Shown piece by piece: positions 6,610 to 17,065 of a DNA stretch of 35,651 nt (positions are counted from its first letter, which is position 1; each line of letters opens with the position of its first letter). The position numbers and the translations under genes are program-made. The notes below the pieces were generated by a model. It was given only the letters and a program-made list of their open reading frames with translations, was not told the origin of the DNA and searched no databases. Location: contig CAIWHK010000052.1 of NCBI GenBank assembly GCA_903912525.1, positions 1-35,651 of the forward strand, in the 5' to 3' direction. Source of the DNA: an uncultured bacterium. GTDB lineage: Bacteria > Krumholzibacteriota > Krumholzibacteriia > LZORAL124-64-63.

Positions 6610-8259
6610 CTAGTAGTCCTTCGGTTCGGCCGCCGGCTTCGCCTCGACCGGCAGCTTCAGCTTCCCGGGGTGCCGCCTGACCACTTCGCGCAGCCAGCTT
6701 TCGGGGTAGCCCACTTCCTGCGGGCTTCCCTTCTCGTCCTGGATGTAGCCGTCGTTGTACTTCGTCAGCAGCAGCTCGCCGAGCGCGCGCCAGCGGCGCA
6801 CCACTTCCTCGGCGTGCAGCACCGAGTAGTCGGTCAGCCATCGCGTCGCCAGTTCCGGGTCGGTGCGGTACAGGACAGCGGTAGCCTGCTCGAAAGTCGG
6901 TTGCACGGCCAGATAATCGCCCTCGATGGCGTGCTGCACCAGGCGCACATCGGCAATCATCGGCTCGTAGCGCAGCGCCGCGTAGTTGGACACGAAGTTG
7001 AAGACCCAGAACGCCGAGTCCCAGCTGAACTTCTGCAACGTGCCCGCTGCGTACGAGGCCGGGATGTCCGTGATGCCGCAGTACAGCGGCGTGTAGCAGG
7101 TGAAATCCGTGTCGTCCAGTCCGTACCAGGTGATGCCGCCGATGGCGTCGGGCATCCCGCGTCGCGCCTGCGTCACCATCGAGAACCCGGTCTGCTGCGT
7201 CGAGATGGGACGCTCCCAGGTGTAGGCGGTATCGCCGAGCGCAAAGCCCATCGGCCGCGTGCGCAGCGGATAGCCGAACGGGCCGGCATCCATGCCCTTG
7301 GTCATGTCGTAGTCGGTGCCCTCGTAGTGGTCGCGCATCAGCGCGAAGACCTCGTCCAGCGACAGCTTCTCGTCGGGCTTGACGAACAGAGGGTACGGCT
7401 CGGCGCCGGCCACGCCGCGGTGGTAGTCGGGGCTCAGGCCCAGCGACGGCGCGGCGCGCCGGAAGATGCTCCACACGCGCGCGGCGGTGTAGCGCTTCTG
7501 CTGCGCGGTCAGCGGATGGAACGCGGCGCTCCAGTCGAAGGCGCCGTCGGCGGGCTTCCACCAGCCGTGCTCCTTCGCGAAGTCCTCCATGCCGGGCGAG
7601 AACAGGCAGTTCTGCGGGTCGTTCTTCGGGAACGTCGTGATGCGGCCGCCGTTGGCGAACGCGCTGATGTAGCCGTCGGGGACGCGGATGGCGACCCAGT
7701 GAGCGCCAGGACCTTTGCCAGCTTGGCCGCCCTTGCCCGGCCCGACCATCTCCATCACCCAGGCTTCCTTCGGGTCGCCGATGCAGTACGACTCGCCGCT
7801 GCTGCGATAGCCGTGCGTCGCGACCAGCCGACCCATCTCCTCGACGCATTCGCGCGCCGTGGTCGAGCGCTGCAGCGCCAGCCGCATCAGCGTCCAGTAG
7901 TGCAGCAGCCCCTCGTCGTTGGTCAGTTCGTCGCGCCCGCCGGTCGTCGTCTCGGCGATGGAGACCTGCTTCTCGTTCTGCAGGTTCACCACGGCCCACG
8001 TGTGCGCCGGGTAGGGCACCTGGCCGACCACCTGCCCGCTCCAGTTCCTGATGTCCTGCATCTCGCCGGGCTTGTGGTCGCCGGCGGGGATCCGCTCGAG
8101 CGTGGGATGGAACTCGCCGTCGCAGGTGTAGGTGACGAAGATCGATCCGTCGGTGGTGGCGCCGGGGCTGCAGACCAGGTTGGTGCAGGCCAGGGCGGCG
8201 GGGGCAGCGGCGACCAGGAGCAGCAGCGCGGCGATGGCGCGGGCGGACAAGCGGGACAT
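6610..8259 (-). CDS. C69-family dipeptidase-like Ntn hydrolase, exported
   Basis: The product has 549 residues. A signal peptide (residues 1-24, ending ALA) is followed directly by C25 in ACTNLVCSPGATTDGS, matching the C69 pattern in which an exposed N-terminal cysteine is the nucleophile. Later motifs such as ESYCIGDPKEAWVMEMVG and NGGRITTFP fit this family. Such enzymes cleave dipeptides or other amide bonds. I chose ATG 8259 because it places the signal peptide at the N-terminus and has GGGAAGG five bases upstream. It is the first gene of the operon with the phosphatase and a small membrane protein, which touch without gaps. The real substrate is unknown. Confidence 0.9.
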   Translation of the reverse strand: MSRLSARAIAALLLLVAAAPAALACTNLVCSPGATTDGSIFVTYTCDGEFHPTLERIPAGDHKPGEMQDIRNWSGQVVGQVPYPAHTWAVVNLQNEKQVSIAETTTGGRDELTNDEGLLHYWTLMRLALQRSTTARECVEEMGRLVATHGYRSSGESYCIGDPKEAWVMEMVGPGKGGQAGKGPGAHWVAIRVPDGYISAFANGGRITTFPKNDPQNCLFSPGMEDFAKEHGWWKPADGAFDWSAAFHPLTAQQKRYTAARVWSIFRRAAPSLGLSPDYHRGVAGAEPYPLFVKPDEKLSLDEVFALMRDHYEGTDYDMTKGMDAGPFGYPLRTRPMGFALGDTAYTWERPISTQQTGFSMVTQARRGMPDAIGGITWYGLDDTDFTCYTPLYCGITDIPASYAAGTLQKFSWDSAFWVFNFVSNYAALRYEPMIADVRLVQHAIEGDYLAVQPTFEQATAVLYRTDPELATRWLTDYSVLHAEEVVRRWRALGELLLTKYNDGYIQDEKGSPQEVGYPESWLREVVRRHPGKLKLPVEAKPAAEPKDY

Positions 8260-8340: not shown

Positions 8341-8358
8341 ACTTGCGCCGGCGCAAGT
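8341..8358. repeat. Dispersed palindrome, copy 1 (perfect)
   Basis: ACTTGCGCCGGCGCAAGT is a perfect 18-bp palindrome with no central gap. It sits between the divergent C69 operon and a small secreted-protein gene. A second perfect copy is at 16749 and a near copy at 10569. The rest of 8260-8554 shows no gene and no terminator. Confidence 0.85.
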
Positions 8359-8554
8359 GGCGGCCGGACGGCCTCGCCCCTCACCTCGACGCGGGATTGG
8401 GCCTCACACCGTCGAATTGTGGATCGTGCCGGGGTTACACCCGACTCTTGCCTGTTTTTCATGCGTGCAACTGGCTTCCGGTGGTACATTCGTCGGATGG
8501 ATCTGCCGGAGGCATGCATGCCGGATGGGTGCTTATCGTGAGGAAGGGAATGAA

Positions 8555-9154
8555 ATGATAAAACGGTACCTCTTGGCCTTGGTTGCGGGGATCATTCTTG
8601 TCGCGATTGCAGGTGGGCCGGCCGCTGCCGGTAAGGTGGCTCCCATTCCGGAGGGGGGGCTCGTCGGCGCCACTTGGGTCACGAACATTGCGGCCGGCCA
8701 ATATTTCGGCCTGACGATCTTCAAGTTGCGCCCGCGTCAGGCGGGCTGGTTCATCGAGGGCAAATTTGGGCGCCGGATGACATATGAAAGTTCGGACTAC
8801 TACGAGAATATCTCGATCAGCGAGGCAGAGGGCTGGGGAGACTCATTCCTCAAGGAGGACGAGTCATACGACACGTTCGATGTCGGACTGACGTTCGCCT
8901 ACACCAATGCCTTCGCGTTGTACCTCGGGATCGGCCTGAGCGAAGTCGACAGCTACCGGCAGTACCACGACGATTTCGGGATTCTTGGCGACAACGGTGA
9001 CTATTGGATCGACGGAAGCATGAACGGGACGAAAATGAACACGGTCGGCGGTGCCATCATCCGTACCTCCGACACGGTGCTCCTGCAGATCGGCTGCGAT
9101 TCGCAACCGAAGGGGCTCAATATCGGCGTGGGCATCACCACAAACTGGCCGTGA
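8555..9154 (+). CDS. Secreted protein of unknown function, possibly a small beta-barrel
   Basis: The product has 199 residues. Residues 1-25 form a signal peptide ending AAA. The mature part alternates hydrophobic and polar residues in strand-like segments (TFDVGLTFAYT, FALYLGIGLSEVD, LNIGVGITTNW near the end), which suggests a small outer-membrane barrel, though there is no terminal aromatic. I do not recognise a family. The start is ATG with AGGAAGGG just upstream; an in-frame ATG at 8525 lacks a ribosome site. The stop overlaps a possible start of the next gene by one base. Codon use looks less GC-biased than in neighbouring housekeeping genes. Confidence 0.7.
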   Translation: MIKRYLLALVAGIILVAIAGGPAAAGKVAPIPEGGLVGATWVTNIAAGQYFGLTIFKLRPRQAGWFIEGKFGRRMTYESSDYYENISISEAEGWGDSFLKEDESYDTFDVGLTFAYTNAFALYLGIGLSEVDSYRQYHDDFGILGDNGDYWIDGSMNGTKMNTVGGAIIRTSDTVLLQIGCDSQPKGLNIGVGITTNWP

Positions 9155-9177
9155 TGGTCGAAAATGGATGGTGGACA

Positions 9178-9579
9178 ATGGCAATTACAAAGGAGCCCGG
9201 CAAGCTAGGGATGCCCTGGCGGCATACAGCGGCGATGCTTTTCGTCATCCTGATCGCTTCAGGCTGGGCGAGCAGCGCCCTGGCGGGTTACAAGCAGACA
9301 TTCGTCGCGCTAATGAACGAGAACTACGGGCGAATTTGCCACCTGAAGCTCGAGGGATGGGGCGGCCGCACCCTGCGGGTGGACTGGACGGCAGAGACCG
9401 TAAAGCTACACATCCTGAGAGTCATGGCTGAAATCGGCGAGGCTAAGGAGGAGCTTTACGGCGATGGTGTCCGATATCTCAAGTTCCCGAACGACGTCGG
9501 CGGCTATAATGTAGTGGATTGGCAAACGGGGGAAAAGAAGTCGGTCGATGAACGGGCCCCTTATTACTTCCCTGATTGA
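9178..9579 (+). CDS. Small secreted protein of unknown function
   Basis: The product has 133 residues from this start. A hydrophobic signal segment (about residues 15-36, ending ALA) precedes a mature domain of about 97 residues with CHLKLEGWGGRTLRVDW, a helical stretch and a charged end (ERAPYYFPD). No family was recognised. The start is uncertain: ATG 9154 overlaps the upstream stop (TGATG), ATG 9178 gives this version, and ATG 9211 gives the cleanest signal peptide but AAGGAG lies 15 bases away. It follows the barrel-like gene on the same strand and is probably co-transcribed. GC content is lower than in flanking genes. Confidence 0.6.
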   Translation: MAITKEPGKLGMPWRHTAAMLFVILIASGWASSALAGYKQTFVALMNENYGRICHLKLEGWGGRTLRVDWTAETVKLHILRVMAEIGEAKEELYGDGVRYLKFPNDVGGYNVVDWQTGEKKSVDERAPYYFPD

Positions 9580-9651
9580 AGGCTTGGGGTGCCACGCGAG
9601 GTCCCGACACGCGGTGGCTCGCCGTCCCGGCGCGCAGGAGGGTTATAGCTC

Positions 9652-10536
9652 ATGAACCGGGAATTGGTCGATACCCACGTCCACCTGAACCACCCGCCCC
9701 TGAGCGACGACCCGGCCGCGGTTCTGGCCCGCGCCGCCGCCGCCGGCGTGACCCGCGTTGTCGTCCCGGCCTACGACGCCCCATGTTGGGAAGACCTCGA
9801 TAACCTGGCAAAGCACGCCGGTGTTTCCATCGCCCTCGGCCTGCATCCCTGGCTGGCCCATGACCTGGCCGGCCAGGTGGCGGGGCTGCAGGGTTCGCCC
9901 CCGGCCAAGCCCGCCGCGGGCGCCATCATGCCCATGGAACCGATGCCCGGCGCCGGGTCGGCCGCGCCCACGGGAGCCGAGCTGGACCGGTTCATCTACC
10001 AGCTGGCCTCGCGCGTGGCGGCGTCGCGGCCGGTGGCGATCGGCGAGATCGGCCTCGACACGAAGATCAACGCCAGCGGCCTGGTGCAGCAGATGCCGCT
10101 GTTCGAGCGGCAACTGGCCCTGGCGGTCGATCTCGACCTGCCGGTGATCCTGCACTGCCGCGGCGCCTTCGAGGAGATGCTGGCGGCGGTGGCGAAGCAT
10201 CGCGGACGCCTGCGCGGGGTGTTGCACGCGTTCTCGCGCGGGCCCGAGCTGGCCGAGCGGTTCATTGACGCCGGATTGCACATCGCGCTCGGCGGCGCCG
10301 CCACGCGGGTGCGGGCGACGCAGGTGCGGCGGGCGGTGCAGAAGGCCCCGCTGGAGCGGCTGGTGCTGGAGACCGATGCGCCGTCGATCGGGCTCGAGGG
10401 CATCAACCCCGAACAAACCGAACCGCGTCACGTCCACGACGTGGCCGTGGCCGTGGCGGCGCTGCGCGGAATGACGATCGAAGCGCTCGCCGAGGCGACG
10501 ACGGCCAACGCGCGCGTGCTGTTCAACCTGCCCTGA
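9652..10536 (+). CDS. tatD: TatD-family metal-dependent hydrolase/DNase
   Basis: The product has 294 residues, slightly longer than the usual 260. Metal-site motifs are present: DTHVHL (H9, H11), IGEIGLD (E132), ILHCRG (H168), LHAFSRG (H192) and ETDAPS (D242). TatD enzymes are cytoplasmic metal-dependent 3'-5' nucleases linked to DNA and RNA turnover. An unusual Pro/Ala/Met-rich stretch (about residues 80-108) is inserted between GLHPW and the IGEIGLD strand and accounts for the extra length. The start is ATG with GGAGGG about 11 bases upstream. It lies alone between unknown secreted genes and hflK. Confidence 0.92.
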   Translation: MNRELVDTHVHLNHPPLSDDPAAVLARAAAAGVTRVVVPAYDAPCWEDLDNLAKHAGVSIALGLHPWLAHDLAGQVAGLQGSPPAKPAAGAIMPMEPMPGAGSAAPTGAELDRFIYQLASRVAASRPVAIGEIGLDTKINASGLVQQMPLFERQLALAVDLDLPVILHCRGAFEEMLAAVAKHRGRLRGVLHAFSRGPELAERFIDAGLHIALGGAATRVRATQVRRAVQKAPLERLVLETDAPSIGLEGINPEQTEPRHVHDVAVAVAALRGMTIEALAEATTANARVLFNLP

Positions 10537-10568
10537 GGCATCCGTCGGCGGTGCCGGTTCGCCGAGGC

Positions 10569-10586
10569 ACTTGCGCCGGCGCAACT
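10569..10586. repeat. Dispersed palindrome, copy 2 (imperfect)
   Basis: ACTTGCGCCGGCGCAACT keeps the 14-bp perfect core TTGCGCCGGCGCAA (10571-10584) and the left flank; the right flank differs at the penultimate base. It lies in the 194-base gap between tatD and hflK, about 145 bases before hflK. Confidence 0.75.
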
Positions 10587-10730
10587 TGCCGGGCCCTGAA
10601 TAATCCCGTGCCCCCCCGGTTACTTCCCGGTACACTCACGGTCGCTTCCCCGGCGCGGGGGACGGCGGCCGCAAACTGGGGGGCGCCGCCGACCGCTGCG
10701 CCCTCCGTCCGCGCCAAGGAGATGTCTGCC

Positions 10731-11768
10731 ATGGACCAGAACGACGGTTTCCACGATTCCGCGCAGGACAACGCCGGCGCCTTCGGGCGTCCGCCCCTGC
10801 GGCCGATCAAGGTGCCGCGCTTCCGCCTGCCCAACCTGAAGCCGCGGCTGGTGCTGCGGGTGCTGGGCGCCTTCGTGGCGGCGATGGTGCTGCTGTCGGG
10901 CTTCTACACGATCGGGCCGGAAGAGGCGGGCCTGGTGCTGCGCTTCGGGCGCTACGTGCGCACCGCCGAGCCGGGGCTGCACTTCAAGGCGCCGCTGGGT
11001 GTCGAAGTCGTGCGCAAGGTGCCCATCCAGCGGCAGTTGAAGGAGGAGTTCGGGTTCCGCACCGTGCGGGCCGGCGTCAACACCGAGTACTCGACCGAAT
11101 CCTACCTCGACGAGTCCAGCATGCTGACCGGCGACCTGAACGCCGCCGTGGTCGAGTGGGTGGTGCAGTACCGCATCCGCGATCCGTACAAGTTCCTGTT
11201 CGAGGTGCGCAACGTCGAGGAGACCCTGCGCGACATGAGCGAGGCCGTCATGCGCCGCGCCGTCGGCGACCGCACCGTGAACGAGGTGCTGACGATCGGC
11301 CGCGCCGAGGTGGCGGCCAGGGTGCAGGTCGACCTCCAGGAACTGGTGAACGAGTACCAGATGGGCATCAGTGTCGACCAGATCGTGTTGCAGGACATCA
11401 ACCCGCCCGATCCGGTCAAGCCCTCCTTCAACGCCGTCAACGAGGCGCAGCAGGAGCGCGAGAAGCTGATCAACCAGGCACAGTCCGAGTACAACCGCGA
11501 GATTCCGCGCGCCAGCGGCGAGGCCGAGCAGACCATCCAGGAGGCCGAGGGCTACGCGCTGAACCGCGTCAACCGCGCCGAGGGCGATGCGTCGGCGTTC
11601 AACGCGCTGTACGACGAGTACCGCAAGGCGCCCGAGGTGACGCGCCGCCGCATGTACCTCGAGACCATGTCGCAGGTGCTGCCGCAGGTGCGCAGCAAGG
11701 TCATCGTCGACGACAAGGTGCGCGGGGTGCTGCCGCTGCTGAACCTCGACGGCAAGGGAGGCAAGTAA
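10731..11768 (+). CDS. hflK: HflK, SPFH/prohibitin-family membrane protein
   Basis: The product has 345 residues. A proline-rich cytoplasmic N-terminus is followed by one transmembrane helix (about residues 40-60) and an SPFH/band-7 domain (GPEEAGLVLRFGRYVRTAEPGLHFKAP begins it at about 64, given in parts GPEEAGLVLRFGRY and AEPGLHFKAP), then a helical Gln/Glu-rich segment (NEAQQEREKLINQAQSEYN, about 240-258). HflK and HflC form a complex around the FtsH protease and limit its attack on membrane proteins. ATG 10731 was chosen because AAGGAG sits nine bases upstream; ATG 10722 directly abuts that site. hflC follows after one base. Confidence 0.95.
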   Translation: MDQNDGFHDSAQDNAGAFGRPPLRPIKVPRFRLPNLKPRLVLRVLGAFVAAMVLLSGFYTIGPEEAGLVLRFGRYVRTAEPGLHFKAPLGVEVVRKVPIQRQLKEEFGFRTVRAGVNTEYSTESYLDESSMLTGDLNAAVVEWVVQYRIRDPYKFLFEVRNVEETLRDMSEAVMRRAVGDRTVNEVLTIGRAEVAARVQVDLQELVNEYQMGISVDQIVLQDINPPDPVKPSFNAVNEAQQEREKLINQAQSEYNREIPRASGEAEQTIQEAEGYALNRVNRAEGDASAFNALYDEYRKAPEVTRRRMYLETMSQVLPQVRSKVIVDDKVRGVLPLLNLDGKGGK

Positions 11769-11769
11769 G

Positions 11770-12705
11770 ATGAAGAAGATCATCATCGCCGCCGGCGTCC
11801 TTGTCGTCCTGCTCGTGTTGATGTCGGCGTACATCGTGCAGGAGCCCGAGCAGGTCGTCGTCACCCAGTTCGGCAAGCCCGTGGGCCGGCCCATCACGAC
11901 GCCGGGCCTGAAGTTTCGCACGCCACTGATCCAGACCGTGCACCGCTTCGAGAAGCGGTTCATGGAGTGGGACGGCGACCCCAACCAGCTGCCGACGCGC
12001 GACAAGCGCTTCATCTGGGTGGACACGTATGCGCGCTGGCGCATCACCGACCCGCTGCTGTTCTACCAGCGCCTGCACAACGAGCGCGGGGCGCACACGC
12101 GGCTGGACGACATCCTGGACGGCGAGACGCGCAACGCCATCGCCAAGTACGACCTGGTGCAACTCGTCCGGACGTCGAACCGGCTCGCCGAGCGCACGGA
12201 GGTCGCCGTCGGCGACGAGACCGAGCTCGTCCAGATCGACAAGGGCCGCAACGACATCCGCCTGGAGATCCTGGCCAATGCCCGGCTGCGCGCGTCCGAC
12301 CTGGGCCTGGAGATCCTGGACATCGAGTTCAAGCGCATCAACTACGTGGACGAGGTGCAGCGGAAGGTCTACGAGCGGATGATTGCCGAACGCCAGCGCA
12401 TCGCCGACCGCTTCCGCAGCGAGGGCCAGGGCGAGGCGTCCCGCATCAAGGGCGAGAAGGACCGCGAGCTGGCGCGCATCCGTTCGGAGGCCTACCGGCG
12501 GGCCCAGGAGATCAAGGGCGCCGCCGACGGCCGCGCCACGGCGATCTACGCCAGCGCCTACAACCGTTCGGCCGACTCGAAGAACTTCTACGAGTTCGTG
12601 CGCACCATGCAGGCCTACGTGACGACGATGGACAGCACCTCAACGATGGTGATGTCCACGGATGGCGACTTCTACCGCTTCCTCAAGAGTAGCTCCGGCA
12701 AGTAG
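11770..12705 (+). CDS. hflC: HflC, SPFH/prohibitin-family partner of HflK
   Basis: The product has 311 residues, the usual size. An N-terminal transmembrane helix (about residues 3-23) leads into a band-7 domain (EPEQVVVTQFGKPVGRPI), then ERMIAERQRIADRFRSEG and GEKDRELARIRSEAYRRAQ, the conserved helical region, and a C-terminal FYEFVRTMQAY segment. With HflK it forms the periplasm-facing HflKC complex that regulates FtsH. It starts one base after the hflK stop, with AAGGGAGG upstream, and is followed by a strong terminator, so hflKC is a two-gene transcript. Confidence 0.96.
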   Translation: MKKIIIAAGVLVVLLVLMSAYIVQEPEQVVVTQFGKPVGRPITTPGLKFRTPLIQTVHRFEKRFMEWDGDPNQLPTRDKRFIWVDTYARWRITDPLLFYQRLHNERGAHTRLDDILDGETRNAIAKYDLVQLVRTSNRLAERTEVAVGDETELVQIDKGRNDIRLEILANARLRASDLGLEILDIEFKRINYVDEVQRKVYERMIAERQRIADRFRSEGQGEASRIKGEKDRELARIRSEAYRRAQEIKGAADGRATAIYASAYNRSADSKNFYEFVRTMQAYVTTMDSTSTMVMSTDGDFYRFLKSSSGK

Positions 12706-12723
12706 CGCCAGGGGCCGTGACGC

Positions 12724-12771
12724 AAAAGAGCGAGGGGTGATCGCGTCGTAGCGATCACCCCTCGCTCTTTT
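12724..12771. terminator. Bidirectional rho-independent terminator
   Basis: A perfect 21-bp stem (left arm 12724-12744, right arm 12751-12771) encloses the six-base loop GTCGTA. The left arm begins AAAAGAGCGAGGGG and the right arm ends in a T-run, so it can end both hflC (plus) and the response regulator (minus), which converge here. Confidence 0.92.
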
Positions 12772-12789
12772 CGCCCACGCCCCCCGGCG

Positions 12790-13470
12790 CTATGGCTGGA
12801 TGCCCGACTGCCGCAGCCACTCGTAAGCGGCCTGGAAGATATCCGTGCTGGTGCGCAGGCCCAGCTTCTTCTTGATGTGGGAGCGGTGGACTTCGACCGT
12901 CCGCGGGCTGATCTGCATCATCTCGGCGATCTCGGCGATCTCCTTGCCCTGGCCGGTCAGCTGGAAGAGTTCCAGTTCGCGGTTGCTCAGGACTTCGACC
13001 GGCGAGGCGACGCCCGGCGCGCGGCCGGTGCCCAGCTGCTCGACGGCGGACTGCGTCATCTTCTCGCTCAGGTAGATGCCGCCCTCGAGCACGCAACGGA
13101 TGGCGTCGCGGATGCGCTCGGTGCCGGCCTGCTTCATGATGTAGCCCTTGGCGCCGGCCTTCAGGCAACGCACGGCGTAGGTGTACTCGTCGTGCATCGA
13201 GACGGCCAGCGTCAGGATGTCCGGGTACCGCGTCTGCAGTTCCTTCAGGAGCGTCAGGCCGCTGCTGTTCTTCAGCGTGATGTCGATCAGGACCAGCTGC
13301 GGGCGGTCGCGCTCGACCATCTCGAGCGCCTGTTCCAGCGTCTCGGCCTCGCCGCACACTTCGAGGTCGGGCTCGAGCTGCAGGATGGCGCGGATGCCTG
13401 AGCGCACCAGAGGATGGTCATCGACGATGAGCAAGCGGTGCTTTGTGTTCGGAGCGGCGGCGTTGGCCAA
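12790..13470 (-). CDS. NarL/LuxR-family response regulator, orphan
   Basis: The product has 226 residues from a TTG start. The receiver domain (about 10-125) has the acidic pair D17/D18, phosphorylation site D63 in LIDITL, S91 and K113 in YIMK. The C-terminal LuxR-type helix-turn-helix (about 155-215) contains LSNRELELFQLTGQGKEIAE and SPRTVEVHRSHIKKKLG. It is a DNA-binding transcription regulator activated by phosphotransfer. TTG 13470 is preferred because GGGAG lies seven bases upstream and no ATG or GTG precedes the receiver; a TTG at 13533 is an alternative. No histidine kinase is adjacent, and its target genes cannot be told from the sequence. Confidence 0.93.
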   Translation of the reverse strand: MANAAAPNTKHRLLIVDDHPLVRSGIRAILQLEPDLEVCGEAETLEQALEMVERDRPQLVLIDITLKNSSGLTLLKELQTRYPDILTLAVSMHDEYTYAVRCLKAGAKGYIMKQAGTERIRDAIRCVLEGGIYLSEKMTQSAVEQLGTGRAPGVASPVEVLSNRELELFQLTGQGKEIAEIAEMMQISPRTVEVHRSHIKKKLGLRTSTDIFQAAYEWLRQSGIQP

Positions 13471-13616
13471 CGTGGATCTCCCGGAAACTCTGGGCGGCCC
13501 GGTTGGGCGATCGGAACGCCGGGCCGGCGTCAAAAGGCTGATTTTCCGATCCCCCGTATGTTAACAGTTCAGATCCGCTTGGAAAACCACGAACCGGACA
13601 TTTTTCGCCAATTTTC

Positions 13617-14249
13617 TCAATATCCCAGACTCACAAAGGACTTCATGAGGCTCCGCGACAGGCCCTCCTGCACGTCCCGGGCGCTGCCGGCCCAGCCGGC
13701 GTCCCGCAGCGTCGTGACGAAATCGCGATGGGTTCGCCCGGCCCGGTAGTCCGGCTCGCGCGGCGGGTGCTGCAGGTACCGGTCCAGCAGCGCCAGGTCG
13801 GGATCCACCAGCAGGGTGGTGGTGTAGTGGGCCAGGCCGCGCTCGCGGCGCAGGCACGAACCACCCAGCTTGCGGTCGCCCAGCGCCAGGTCCGAGACGC
13901 CGCGCTGCGTCACGCCCGCCACGCCGCACGCGGCCAGCGCGTTGATGACGAGGTCGGACGCCAGCTTGAACGCCGCCGGGATACCGCCCAGCCCCGGCAG
14001 CGGCAACACCAACGCGACGATGACGTTGCCCGGGTCCAGCACCACGGCGCCGCCGCCGCCCGGGCGCCGGTACACGGGAACGCCGTCGGCGGCGATGGCC
14101 GCCTCGTGCAGCTCGCGCGCCGCATTGCCGCCGCGCCCGATCACGACCGCCACTTCGTCAGGCCGGTACACGCGGCAAAGCGCGCGCCCGGTGGCGCGCG
14201 CTTCGGCGACCAGATCGTCCTCCTGGTCGTAGGGGAGGATGCCTTCCAC
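13617..14249 (-). CDS. Lipoate-protein ligase A-type (BPL/LPL catalytic domain)
   Basis: The product has 210 residues, a single catalytic domain. Motifs are YRRPGGGGAVVLDPGN (residues 60-75), equivalent to the lipoate-binding RRxTGGGxVxHD loop, and SDLALGDRKLGGSCLRR with K127, the lysine expected to contact lipoyl-AMP. The family attaches lipoate or octanoate to E2 and H proteins; no separate C-terminal domain is present. The GTG start lies four bases after the stop of the E3 gene, so it is the last gene of the 2-oxo acid dehydrogenase operon, and its natural target is probably K42 of the E2 encoded there. GSCLRR replaces the usual GSAQ, so octanoyl transfer versus ligation cannot be decided. 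Confidence 0.87.
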   Translation of the reverse strand: MEGILPYDQEDDLVAEARATGRALCRVYRPDEVAVVIGRGGNAARELHEAAIAADGVPVYRRPGGGGAVVLDPGNVIVALVLPLPGLGGIPAAFKLASDLVINALAACGVAGVTQRGVSDLALGDRKLGGSCLRRERGLAHYTTTLLVDPDLALLDRYLQHPPREPDYRAGRTHRDFVTTLRDAGWAGSARDVQEGLSRSLMKSFVSLGY

Positions 14250-14253
14250 GCCG

Positions 14254-15678
14254 CTACCGGACCTTGCGCGGCGGGTTGATGTGCACCGCCTCGCCGGCCG
14301 CGACCTCGGCCGCCTCCATGAGCGCCTCGGACAGCGTCGGGTGCGGATGGATCGTCACCATGAGGTCCTCCAGCGTGGCGCCCATCTCGACCGCGAGGGT
14401 GGCCTCGGCGATCAGTTCGCTGGCCATCGGCCCGACGATGCCCACGCCCAGGATGAGCCCCGTGTCCGGCTCGGCGATCATCTTCACCAGGCCGTCGGTG
14501 CGGCCCAGCGTGCGCGCGCGGCCCAGCGCCGACAGCGGGAAGCGACCGATGTTCACGGCGATGCCCTGTTCTTCGGCCTCGCGCTCGGTCAGGCCCGTCC
14601 AGGCGATCTCCGGGTCGGTGAAGACGACGGCCGGGATGGCGCGGTTGTCGAAGACGGCGTCGCCCTTGCCGATGACCTCGGCCGCGACCTTGCCCTCGCG
14701 GCTGGCCTTGTGCGCCAGCATGGGGCCGGTGGCGGCATCGCCGATGGCGAAGATGTTCGGCTCGTCGGTGCGGCAGTCGGGGCCCGTCAGGATGAAGCCC
14801 TTGTCGTCGGTCTTCACCCGCGTGTTCTCGAGGCCGATGTCGTCGGTGTTCGGCCGCCGGCCGATCGCCACCAGCACCTGCGCGTAGTGCTTCTCGATCG
14901 TCTGGCCGCCGTGTTCGATGCGCACGTCGAAGCCGCCGCCGCCTGCTTCAGCGATCGACAGCACCTTCGAGTCGACCATGATCTCTTCCAGGCGCTCGGT
15001 GACCTGCTTCACCATCACGTCCACCAGGTCGAAGTCGGCGCCCATGAGCAGGCGCGGGAAGAATTCGACCACCGACACCTTCGAGCCCAGGCCCTGGTAG
15101 ACCAGGCCCATCTCCAGCCCGATGTAGCCGCCGCCCACCACGAGCAGGCTCTCCGGCACGCAGGGCAGCTTCAGCGCATCGGCGCTCGACCACACCGACT
15201 GCACGATGCCCGCCGGCAGCCGGTTCAGGCTCGATCCGGTGGCGATGATGGCCTGCTTGAAGTCGACGCCCGAAACTTCGCCGCCCTCGAGCGACAGGGA
15301 GGTGGGCGAGGTGAACCGCGCATGGCCGCGCAGCACGGTCACGCCGCGCCGCTTCAGCAGCCCCTTGATGCCGTCGCTGAGCCCCTGCACGATGCCGTCG
15401 GTCCACTCGCGCAGCTTCACCGGGTCGATCTTCACGTTGTCGAACGTCAGGCCGAACTCGGCCGCGCGGCGCGCCGTCTCCTGGATCTCGACCGTGTGGA
15501 TCAGCGCCTTCGAGGGGATGCAGCCCTCCAGCAGGCAGGTGCCGCCGGGGCGTTCGCGGCTCTCGACCAGCAGCACGTTCTCGCCGAGGTCGGCCAGGCG
15601 CAGCGCCGCGACGTAGCCGCCGGGGCCGCTGCCGATGACGACGACGTCGGTCTCTTCACGCAGGCTTCCCATCACCAT
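14254..15678 (-). CDS. lpdA: Dihydrolipoamide dehydrogenase (E3)
   Basis: The product has 474 residues, full length. It has the FAD-binding motif VVVIGSGPGGYVAALR (about 12-27), the redox-active cysteines C48 and C53 in GGTCLLEGCIPSKAL, the NAD-binding loop VVGGGYIGLEMG, a second FAD motif IFAIGDA and the C-terminal HPHPTLSEAL with the active-site base. E3 reoxidises the lipoyl groups of E2, reducing NAD. ATG 15678 has TAGGAG seven bases upstream; ATG 15672 is in frame nearby. It follows the E2 gene by 37 bases and precedes the lipoate ligase by four. Confidence 0.97.
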   Translation of the reverse strand: MVMGSLREETDVVVIGSGPGGYVAALRLADLGENVLLVESRERPGGTCLLEGCIPSKALIHTVEIQETARRAAEFGLTFDNVKIDPVKLREWTDGIVQGLSDGIKGLLKRRGVTVLRGHARFTSPTSLSLEGGEVSGVDFKQAIIATGSSLNRLPAGIVQSVWSSADALKLPCVPESLLVVGGGYIGLEMGLVYQGLGSKVSVVEFFPRLLMGADFDLVDVMVKQVTERLEEIMVDSKVLSIAEAGGGGFDVRIEHGGQTIEKHYAQVLVAIGRRPNTDDIGLENTRVKTDDKGFILTGPDCRTDEPNIFAIGDAATGPMLAHKASREGKVAAEVIGKGDAVFDNRAIPAVVFTDPEIAWTGLTEREAEEQGIAVNIGRFPLSALGRARTLGRTDGLVKMIAEPDTGLILGVGIVGPMASELIAEATLAVEMGATLEDLMVTIHPHPTLSEALMEAAEVAAGEAVHINPPRKVR

Positions 15679-15715
15679 GTGCGGTCTCCTACCATGTCCG
15701 GTCTTCTTGGTAAGC

Positions 15716-17065
15716 TCACGTCTCGAGCAGCAGCAGGTTCGGGTCCGACAGCTGGCGCGCCAGCTCGGCCACGAAGCGGGCGGCGTCGGCGCCGTCGGCC
15801 ACGCGGTGGTCAAACGCCAGCGTCAGCGGCAGGATCTTGCGGATGACGATCTGCCCGTCGCGCACCACCGGCTTTTCCTGCACGCGGCCCATGCCGAGGA
15901 TGGCTACCTCGGGATAGTTGATGGTCGCCAGCAGCGCCGTGCCGCCCAGCGGCCCCACGTTCGTGATCGTGAAGGTGCCGCCGCGCATCTCGTCGGCCGG
16001 CAGCGTGCCTTCGCGGGCGCGCATCGCCTTGTCGGCGATGGCGTCGGCCAGCTGCACGATGCTCTTGGTGTCGGTGCCGTGGATGACCGGCACCACCAGG
16101 CCGCGGCCCGTGTCCGCCGCGAAGCCGATGTTGTAGTACTTCTTGTAGACGATCTCCTCGCGGAACGGGTCCAGGCTGGCGTTGAACGCCGGCGTGGCCC
16201 GCAGGCCCGCGGTGACGGCCTTGATGACGAACGCCATCAGCGTCATGCGGCTGCCCGCGCCGCCCTGGCGACGTTCGCGCTCGCGCAGGCGGAAGGCCTC
16301 CAGGTCGGTGACGTCCGCGTCGTCCATGTGCGCCACGTGCGGCACCAGCGCCATGCTGGTCACCATCTTGCGCGCCACCTTGCGGCGGATCGAGCGCAGC
16401 GGCTCGACGACGACCGGGCCCTCGTGGCTGAAGTCCGGCATCGGCTCGATCTCCAGGAACGGGATCGTGGCCGAGGCATGCGCGGCGAACTCGGCGAACG
16501 CCGTGTCGTCGCGCACCGCGCGGGCGGCGATGTGGTCGGGCGGGGTGGGGGCGTGCGCGGCCGGCACGGGTGCTTGCACAACGGGAGCCGGGGCGCCCGA
16601 CGCGAAGCGGTGCACGTCCTCGGGCGTCACGCGGCCGGCCGGGCCGGAGGCGGGCACGACGTTGATGTCGACCTTCAGTTCACGGGCGAGGCGGCGTGTG
16701 GCGGGAGCGGCAGGAACGGGGCGCTGCGGGCCGCCCGGCGCGACCGGCACTTGCGCCGGCGCAAGTGCGGCGGCCGGGGCCGACGTCGGGGCGGAAGCGG
16801 TCTTCGCCGGCGCCTTCGCCTCGGCTGCCGCCCCGTCATCGATCACCACCACGACCGCGCCCACGTTCACCGTGTCGCCCACCTTGCCCCGCAGCGACGC
16901 GATGCGCCCGCCGCGCGGCGAGGGGATGGTGACGGCGGCCTTGTCGGTCTCGACATCGACCAGCGGCGCGTCCTCCAGGACGGTGCCGCCCTCGGTCACG
17001 TGCCACTTGAGGATCTCGCCCTCGGCGATGCCTTCACCAAGGTCGGGCAGCTTGAACTCGAACAA
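15716..17065 (-). CDS. Dihydrolipoamide acyltransferase (E2) of a 2-oxo acid dehydrogenase
   Basis: The product has 449 residues. One lipoyl domain (1-77) carries K42 in VDVETDKAAV. A Pro/Ala-rich linker (about 78-120) leads to a peripheral-subunit-binding domain (about 122-155, ATRRLARELKVDINVVPASG). A second linker leads to the acyltransferase domain with the catalytic DHRVADG (H420, D424). The enzyme takes the acyl group from E1 and passes it to CoA. Start is TTG 17065 with AGGAGG five bases before it; no ATG fits. Whether the complex uses pyruvate or branched-chain acids is unclear; the split E1 and single lipoyl domain allow both. The linker contains the dispersed palindrome. Confidence 0.95.
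   Translation of the reverse strand: MFEFKLPDLGEGIAEGEILKWHVTEGGTVLEDAPLVDVETDKAAVTIPSPRGGRIASLRGKVGDTVNVGAVVVVIDDGAAAEAKAPAKTASAPTSAPAAALAPAQVPVAPGGPQRPVPAAPATRRLARELKVDINVVPASGPAGRVTPEDVHRFASGAPAPVVQAPVPAAHAPTPPDHIAARAVRDDTAFAEFAAHASATIPFLEIEPMPDFSHEGPVVVEPLRSIRRKVARKMVTSMALVPHVAHMDDADVTDLEAFRLRERERRQGGAGSRMTLMAFVIKAVTAGLRATPAFNASLDPFREEIVYKKYYNIGFAADTGRGLVVPVIHGTDTKSIVQLADAIADKAMRAREGTLPADEMRGGTFTITNVGPLGGTALLATINYPEVAILGMGRVQEKPVVRDGQIVIRKILPLTLAFDHRVADGADAARFVAELARQLSDPNLLLLET
16749..16766. repeat. Dispersed palindrome, copy 3 (perfect), inside the E2 linker
   Basis: ACTTGCGCCGGCGCAAGT is identical to copy 1, and symmetry extends to 22 bp (16747-16768). Read in the E2 frame it encodes LAPAQV (about residues 101-106), using the CTT and CAA codons that are scarce in this GC-rich gene. 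The flexible linker tolerates it. Confidence 0.85.

Follow-up and report, generated by a model that had tools for sequence, protein, structure and literature searches.

Repetitive extragenic palindromic (REP) sequences, the palindromes that accompany RAYT enzymes, bear a GTAG/CGTC tag at one end (PMC3733652), and HIP1 of cyanobacteria is an 8-bp site that occurs roughly 500-2500 times per Mb (PMC4390886). The element described here is a palindrome with the 14-bp core TTGCGCCGGCGCAA, three copies of which lie in a stretch of 35,651 nucleotides (the window; contig C52) from the genome of an uncultured bacterium of the phylum Krumholzibacteriota (G000; 4,288,311 bases in 72 contigs). No GTAG/CGTC tag was found in it; it is a perfect palindrome with SAS/STS flanks. 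The initial annotation of the window had likened it to HIP1, a likeness that held insofar as the palindrome is perfect and iterated genome-wide, but with a density of 69/Mb and a 14-bp site it fits only loosely. We report that the palindrome is restricted to one genus and concentrated there in the genes of an HNH-endonuclease family, and that related genera carry other palindromes at one fixed spot in their HNH genes, a pattern suggestive of a repeat system linked to a nuclease and not described before.

Iteration of the palindrome in one genus

The core occurred 296 times in G000 (~69/Mb), and its reversed-letter control did not occur at all. In 420 kb of this genome we counted 64 copies against 0.022 expected from an order-4 Markov model, and TGCGCCGGCGCA, which occurred 65 times in the same 420 kb, was part of the full 14-mer in all but one case. 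The control and the Markov expectation ruled out chance or base composition as the origin of the iteration, and the suggestion that the window's copies belong to a genome-wide iterated palindrome far above chance was thereby borne out. A count in relatives had also been proposed; the palindrome was amplified in all four genomes of the window's genus (g1; 296, 224, 141, and 176 copies) and nearly absent from the rest of the phylum, where the other 76 genomes had 0 or 1 copy each, except for two with 6 that belong to g13, a genus of the same family. The genomes compared within g1 (G001-G003) are metagenome bins, and the analysis as a whole rests on such bins. Carriage by viruses was considered and rejected; the 18-mer ACTTGCGCCGGCGCAAGT was present in 9 scattered viral contigs as a single copy per contig, and the search for viral relatives of the HNH protein described below found none.

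Shape and placement of the copies

The extended consensus, SASTTGCGCCGGCGCAASTS, was weak, with A at -2 in 95% and C or G at -1 in 95%; the flanks preferred SAS/STS and were unrelated beyond about 3 bases outside the motif. A 1.19-Mb sample of G000, in which genes were called by a purpose-made finder using codon log-odds rather than taken from curated annotation, contained 150 exact copies together with 17 sites that differed from the core at one base and 21 that differed at two, the last number being near the background given by scrambled palindromes. Although 85% of the sample was coding, 121 of the 150 copies were intergenic and 29 coding. Convergent gaps held 25 copies versus 5.8 expected, and a further enrichment spanned 10-30 bp past stop codons (at 10-20 bp, 22 copies versus 6.5 expected). 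An enrichment near promoters, for which the initial annotation had suggested a test, was not what we found, as the bias was toward 3' gene ends and divergent gaps held 10 copies versus 16 expected.

The distribution along the genome was patchy, with 140 kb of contig C6 free of copies and 44 copies in 188 kb of contig C40. The empty parts of C6 were 1-80000 and 110001-170000, yet 90000-109999 of the same contig had 7 copies. Among close pairs in the four genomes, 10 of 34 had a spacing of exactly 34 bp, and in several the sequence between the two copies was shared in part (..CGTGAGA[GC]); clusters of palindromes were also noted at L024 6559-6686 and L034 12052-12108. Some coding copies lay in apparent signal peptides (G000 C40 24071 and C65 2454; MVVLALAPAQA, MVLLALAIVAPAQA), and the peptide encoded by the palindrome resembles a signal-peptidase site.

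Conservation between sister species

The exact core is conserved between sister species at the DNA level. At intergenic loci not picked for the motif, 12 of 15 aligned G000 sites were exact in G001, where ~10% per site would be expected at the 84.7% column identity (binomial p 3e-10), although the palindrome can anchor alignments and the figure of 12 of 15 is therefore somewhat optimistic. One of the 3 remaining sites was in fact exact and had been mis-gapped in the alignment. When all G000-G001 loci were taken, 25 of 32 were exact and 3 had one change, the differences at sister sites being mostly single substitutions or small deletions. G002, with the lowest copy count of the genus (141), had the most one-off copies, and loci not picked for the motif gave 6 exact to 5 one-off copies there.

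The HNH-endonuclease genes of the window's genus

A multicopy gene family, with 5-16 matches per genome in the genus, emerged from the orthology searches. The C-terminus of its protein is an HNH endonuclease domain (PF01844, 1e-10; 42 bits versus a cut-off of 21.4) that resembles, by sequence match, HNH chains in the PDB such as HfmIscB and McrA; outside this C-terminal stretch, the N-terminal helical region included, there was no Pfam match. When the HNH protein was searched against plasmids the matches were only partial, and against a defence library only weak, in both cases within the HNH region.

The palindrome was concentrated in these genes. In the 1.19-Mb sample, 5 of them contained 14 copies, or 2.7/kb compared to 0.115/kb elsewhere, making them by far its densest coding location. 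In 15 of 16 diverged g1 HNH genes, the exact core occupied the same position, the LAPAQV codons that come just after a CPDC motif. Under genomic codon usage the chance of the five LAPAQV codon choices is 2e-4 per gene, indicating that selection or conversion acts on the DNA. The HNH homologs of other genera aligned to this block without a gap, reading LSTAQA, LSKAES, LTNAEA, etc., and therefore the stretch is native and insertion into the LAPAQV block was excluded. As these homologs lack the palindrome, and as the sister sites above showed point changes rather than empty sites, the proposal that the palindrome arrived as a unit found no support. The g1 HNH genes had additional copies after the HNH domain and, in the LRRRK frame, within the first linker. 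An AlphaFold model of the protein was of poor confidence (mean predicted local distance difference test score, pLDDT, 60), and its low-confidence stretches 140-168, 202-226, and 327-344 coincided with palindrome positions.

Palindromes in the HNH genes of other genera

Other genera were sampled by one or two HNH genes each, 26 genes in total. These genes carried other perfect palindromes, of 14-30 bp, including GATGCCCCCCGGGGGGCATC, GGCCCCCCGGGGGGCC, CGAAGGTCCCCGGGGACCTTCG, TTCCCCACGTGGGGAA (the linker palindrome of G013/G022), AGTCCAGACGTCTGGACT, GTCCACCCGGGTGGAC, and TTTACACGTGTAAA; additional linker palindromes were GGTCCCCGGGGACC and CCAGCCGGCTGG in G007, TCCAGACGTCTGGA in G005, and GTACACGTGTAC in G049. 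Perfect palindromes of at least 14 bp were present in 18 of the 26 genes, compared to 17% of control windows and to a mean of 5.7 and a maximum of 11 under synonymous-codon permutation; for those of at least 16 bp the corresponding values were 13 of 26, 8%, 2.1, and 6. Most were centered at query amino acids 208-230, in the linker preceding VQIHVHECPxC, and the linker palindromes shared one frame, in which an Arg codon spans the central C|G (PRG, TRV, RRL, SRL). In g13, the HNH linker contains the window's own palindrome (GAG TTG CGC CGG CGC AAC TC). In G009, GCGGAACGTTCCGC lies on both sides of the HNH gene, outside the coding sequence (L195 13264 and 14594), and may be that lineage's palindrome in a flanking rather than an internal position.

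If the palindrome in the HNH gene is the one that is iterated, CCCCCCGGGGGG, the commonest HNH palindrome of other genera, should be amplified where the HNH gene holds it, and this prediction was put to the test. Genomic counts of CCCCCCGGGGGG were 30 in G004, 60 in G006, 54 in G010, 35 in G019, 66 in G027, and 40 in G017; lower counts were obtained for G023 (22), G014 (11), and G020, G028, and G011 (5-7). The reversed-letter control gave 0-1 everywhere, and genera with another HNH palindrome had 0-3 copies of CCCCCCGGGGGG. Holders and non-holders differed with p 7e-6 in a rank test in which genera were counted several times, some genomes were assigned by genus, and G017 was a holder on the 10-bp CCCCCGGGGG. 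Thus, perfect palindromes are present at one HNH linker position in other genera, and CCCCCCGGGGGG is iterated in most of the genomes whose HNH gene holds it. In G049, which belongs to another family, there were 56 copies of CGCCCCCGGGGGCG. This sequence was absent from three genomes of the family to which G049 belongs, and a 30-bp linker palindrome built on it occurs in an HNH gene of G049. At L225 1504-1598 of this genome, three copies of its palindrome lie at 42-bp spacing in tandem units within a long reading frame.

Proposed mechanism and rival explanations

We favor the interpretation that TTGCGCCGGCGCAA is the lineage-specific iterated palindrome of a two-part system, in which the genes of a multicopy HNH-endonuclease family are one part and a perfect palindrome, found both within these genes and dispersed genome-wide, is the other; we judge that this interpretation has about an even chance of being right. 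More tentatively, and with doubts that exceed our confidence, we propose a class-wide selfish or domesticated system, previously undescribed, in which the HNH endonuclease recognizes the palindrome in its gene, keeps or spreads exact copies, and switches specificity repeatedly, such that each genus has its own palindrome. The HNH protein would recognize its own lineage's palindrome as a symmetric site, and binding or nicking there would maintain exact copies and might occasionally spread them, possibly through repair, gene conversion, or a rare copying event, like the supposed action of RAYT on REP. Copies would persist mostly where they are harmless, that is, at 3' gene ends and in convergent gaps, linkers, and signal peptides. 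If the specificity of the enzyme changed in a lineage, a new palindrome would displace the old one, and such replacement would produce genus-specific "dialects". Our literature search, which covered mostly non-subscription papers, found no link between iterated palindromes and HNH genes.

Several observations weigh against a two-part system of this kind. Among ~30 G000-G001 comparisons there was no clean empty orthologous site, diverged spacers not being alignable, so that spreading was not seen directly. A long palindrome was missing from 8 of the 26 HNH genes of other genera. The HNH copy conserved within the window's genus lies just after CPDC, away from the linker where other genera have theirs. 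C6G6 is present in the HNH gene of G012, yet the genomic copies number just 2 there and 3 in G021, which belongs to the same genus. The sampled copies in G049 were mostly coding (12 coding, 4 intergenic), unlike those of the window's genus. Genome-wide counts covered C6G6, one C5G5-type palindrome, and the g1 core only, and HNH genes are also multicopy in genera outside those tested for iteration.

That the exact core is kept between species without visible insertion, that the SAS/STS flanks and palindromic symmetry suit a dimeric protein, and that the copies are distributed patchily would all fit a site that is conserved because an unlinked chromosomal protein binds it (a nucleoid, segregation, or transcription-end factor, as with the Noc and SlmA sites), the HNH genes being merely site-rich. 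We regard such a site as unlikely though worth serious weight, since it leaves unexplained both the different perfect palindromes at one homologous HNH place across many genera and the match of the HNH-gene palindrome with the iterated one, and since the near-zero tolerance of single mismatches is unusual for such sites. Rather less probable is a mobile or formerly mobile miniature element, like REP or a miniature inverted-repeat transposable element (MITE), inserted many times by an unknown transposase and now decaying. The high copy number, genus restriction, extragenic bias, doublets at fixed 34-bp spacing, and differences between lineages in copy number and decay (as in G002) speak for it; the lack of clean empty sites, the predominance of point changes at sister sites, flanks that are unrelated directly outside 20 bp, the exactness of old shared copies, and the absence of a Y1/RAYT transposase from three of the four genus genomes, with a fragment only in G002, speak against it.

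A DNA uptake sequence (DUS), that is, a tag for self-recognition whose exactness is preserved by uptake bias during natural transformation and of which selfish HNH genes carry extra copies, seems to us improbable; to our knowledge, known DUS are non-palindromic and far denser, unlike the sparser palindrome found here. Exactness, gain by point mutation rather than insertion, location at 3' ends, and occurrence in coding sequence would nevertheless agree with it, as would exact iteration with genus dialects, known for the DUS of Neisseriaceae and Pasteurellaceae (PMC3630211). It does not predict a fixed HNH linker position with changing sequence, and the long copy-free stretches also argue against it. 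There is little to recommend a HIP-like site kept by methylation-directed repair bias, because a 14-bp core exceeds the usual length of methyltransferase sites, because ~69/Mb compares poorly with the 500-2500/Mb of HIPs, and because the linked gene encodes a nuclease. In its favor are the perfect palindromy and the existence of alternatives specific to lineages, in line with what has been proposed for HIP1 and the sequences that replace it (PMC4390886). We give hardly any credence to a factor-independent transcription terminator or mRNA 3'-end hairpin. The palindrome RNA does fold, giving a stem of 7-8 bp and a CCGG loop, and copies are enriched 10-30 bp past stops and in convergent gaps, but the run of T that should follow a G+C hairpin in an intrinsic terminator was lacking (at least 5 T in the next 10 bases in 0 of 72 3'-end copies), and the intrinsic terminator was rejected. 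Moreover, a hairpin would permit compensatory changes whereas the sequence is fixed, and copies also occur in coding and divergent regions.

The copies in the window

The three copies that the initial annotation had recognized, one with a single change, were all found where it placed them (Table 1). Their cores are at 8343-8356, 10571-10584, and 16751-16764, and no other match with 0 or 1 mismatch exists in the window; the 18-mer is exact at 8341 and 16749 and differs by one base at 10569. Pfam domain matches agreed with the proposed neighbor genes (C69, tatD, hflK, and E2) and with the LAPAQV linker copy, the latter lying between the lipoyl domain (amino acids 3-75) and the E3-binding domain (amino acids 117-151) of E2. 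The CTT and CAA codons of this copy are indeed unusual, accounting for 2.8% of Leu and 6.6% of Gln codons in the genome. At the orthologous places in relatives, copy 1 is TTGTGCCGGCGCAA in sister species G002, with one change; copy 2 is exact in G001, has a small left-edge deletion in G002, and is lacking from the diverged spacer of G003; and the core of copy 3 is exact in G001 and G003. Directly after the second Band_7 gene, at 12703-12792 of the window, is a ~90-bp imperfect inverted repeat (82% self-match, other strand), and a similar stretch is present in sister genome G001 (C342:165-235).

Table 1. Palindrome copies and adjacent genes in the window
Feature	Position	Strand	Description
Peptidase_C69 gene, copy 1 upstream	6610-8259	-	Pfam Peptidase_C69 6e-70
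Palindrome copy 1, ACTTGCGCCGGCGCAAGT	8341-8358		Intergenic, divergent gap, 83 bp from Peptidase_C69 gene start
TatD-type DNase gene, copy 2 at 3' end	9652-10536	+	Pfam TatD_DNase 7e-57
Palindrome copy 2, ACTTGCGCCGGCGCAACT (14-bp core exact)	10569-10586		34 bp past TatD stop, 146 bp before Band_7/HflK-type gene
Band_7 (HflK-type) gene	10731-11768	+	Pfam
E2 2-oxoacid dehydrogenase acyltransferase gene, host of copy 3	15716-17065	-	Pfam 2-oxoacid_dh 3e-78, Biotin_lipoyl, E3_binding
Palindrome copy 3, ACTTGCGCCGGCGCAAGT	16749-16766		Coding LAPAQV, E2 linker

Comparison with known systems

With HNH nucleases such as those of the McrA type and the HNH domain of IscB, the family protein shares a C-terminal HNH domain, but the match is limited to that C-terminal stretch. 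Rickettsia palindromic elements (RPEs) are much longer insertions, whereas the unit here is 14-20 bp and insertion was not seen. Like them and other small intragenic repeats (PMC2229807), the palindrome occurs both in reading frames and between genes. HIP1 is likewise a perfect palindrome over-represented genome-wide and replaced by others in some lineages (PMC4390886), but the palindrome here is much rarer, longer, and tied to HNH genes, HIPs being related to DNA methyltransferases.

The nearest analogue is REP/RAYT, in which a high-copy (>100), lineage-specific, mostly extragenic palindrome is linked to a nuclease gene flanked by palindromes, with fixed-spacing doublets (REPIN-like; 34 bp here) and long persistence (PMC3116915, PMC2817692, PMC8049555). 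Here it is the HNH gene, in place of RAYT, that is the nuclease gene carrying the lineage's palindrome. The linked gene encodes an HNH-domain protein and not a Y1/HUH enzyme; the Y1/HUH transposase domain PF01797 had no match in G000, G001, or G003 and only one 62-position fragment with a stop in G002, and a RAYT/Y1 transposase was rejected as the partner. Because Y1 is missing from three genomes and fragmentary in the fourth, and because the palindrome is perfect, about 14-20 bp, and intragenic, the system is not a member of REP/RAYT; its sister sites are, moreover, conserved without visible insertion. Many natural gene-palindrome pairs exist across the genera. If the HNH protein does read its own palindrome, the in-gene palindrome would reveal the specificity of the enzyme, and the pairs would form a ready-made table showing how HNH nucleases come to recognize long palindromes, and would offer a testable example of the persistence and spread of very short sequences in bacterial genomes. 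REP/RAYT is the familiar example of a palindrome population with a resident nuclease; here the enzyme is of another class, and the palindromes are shorter and perfect.

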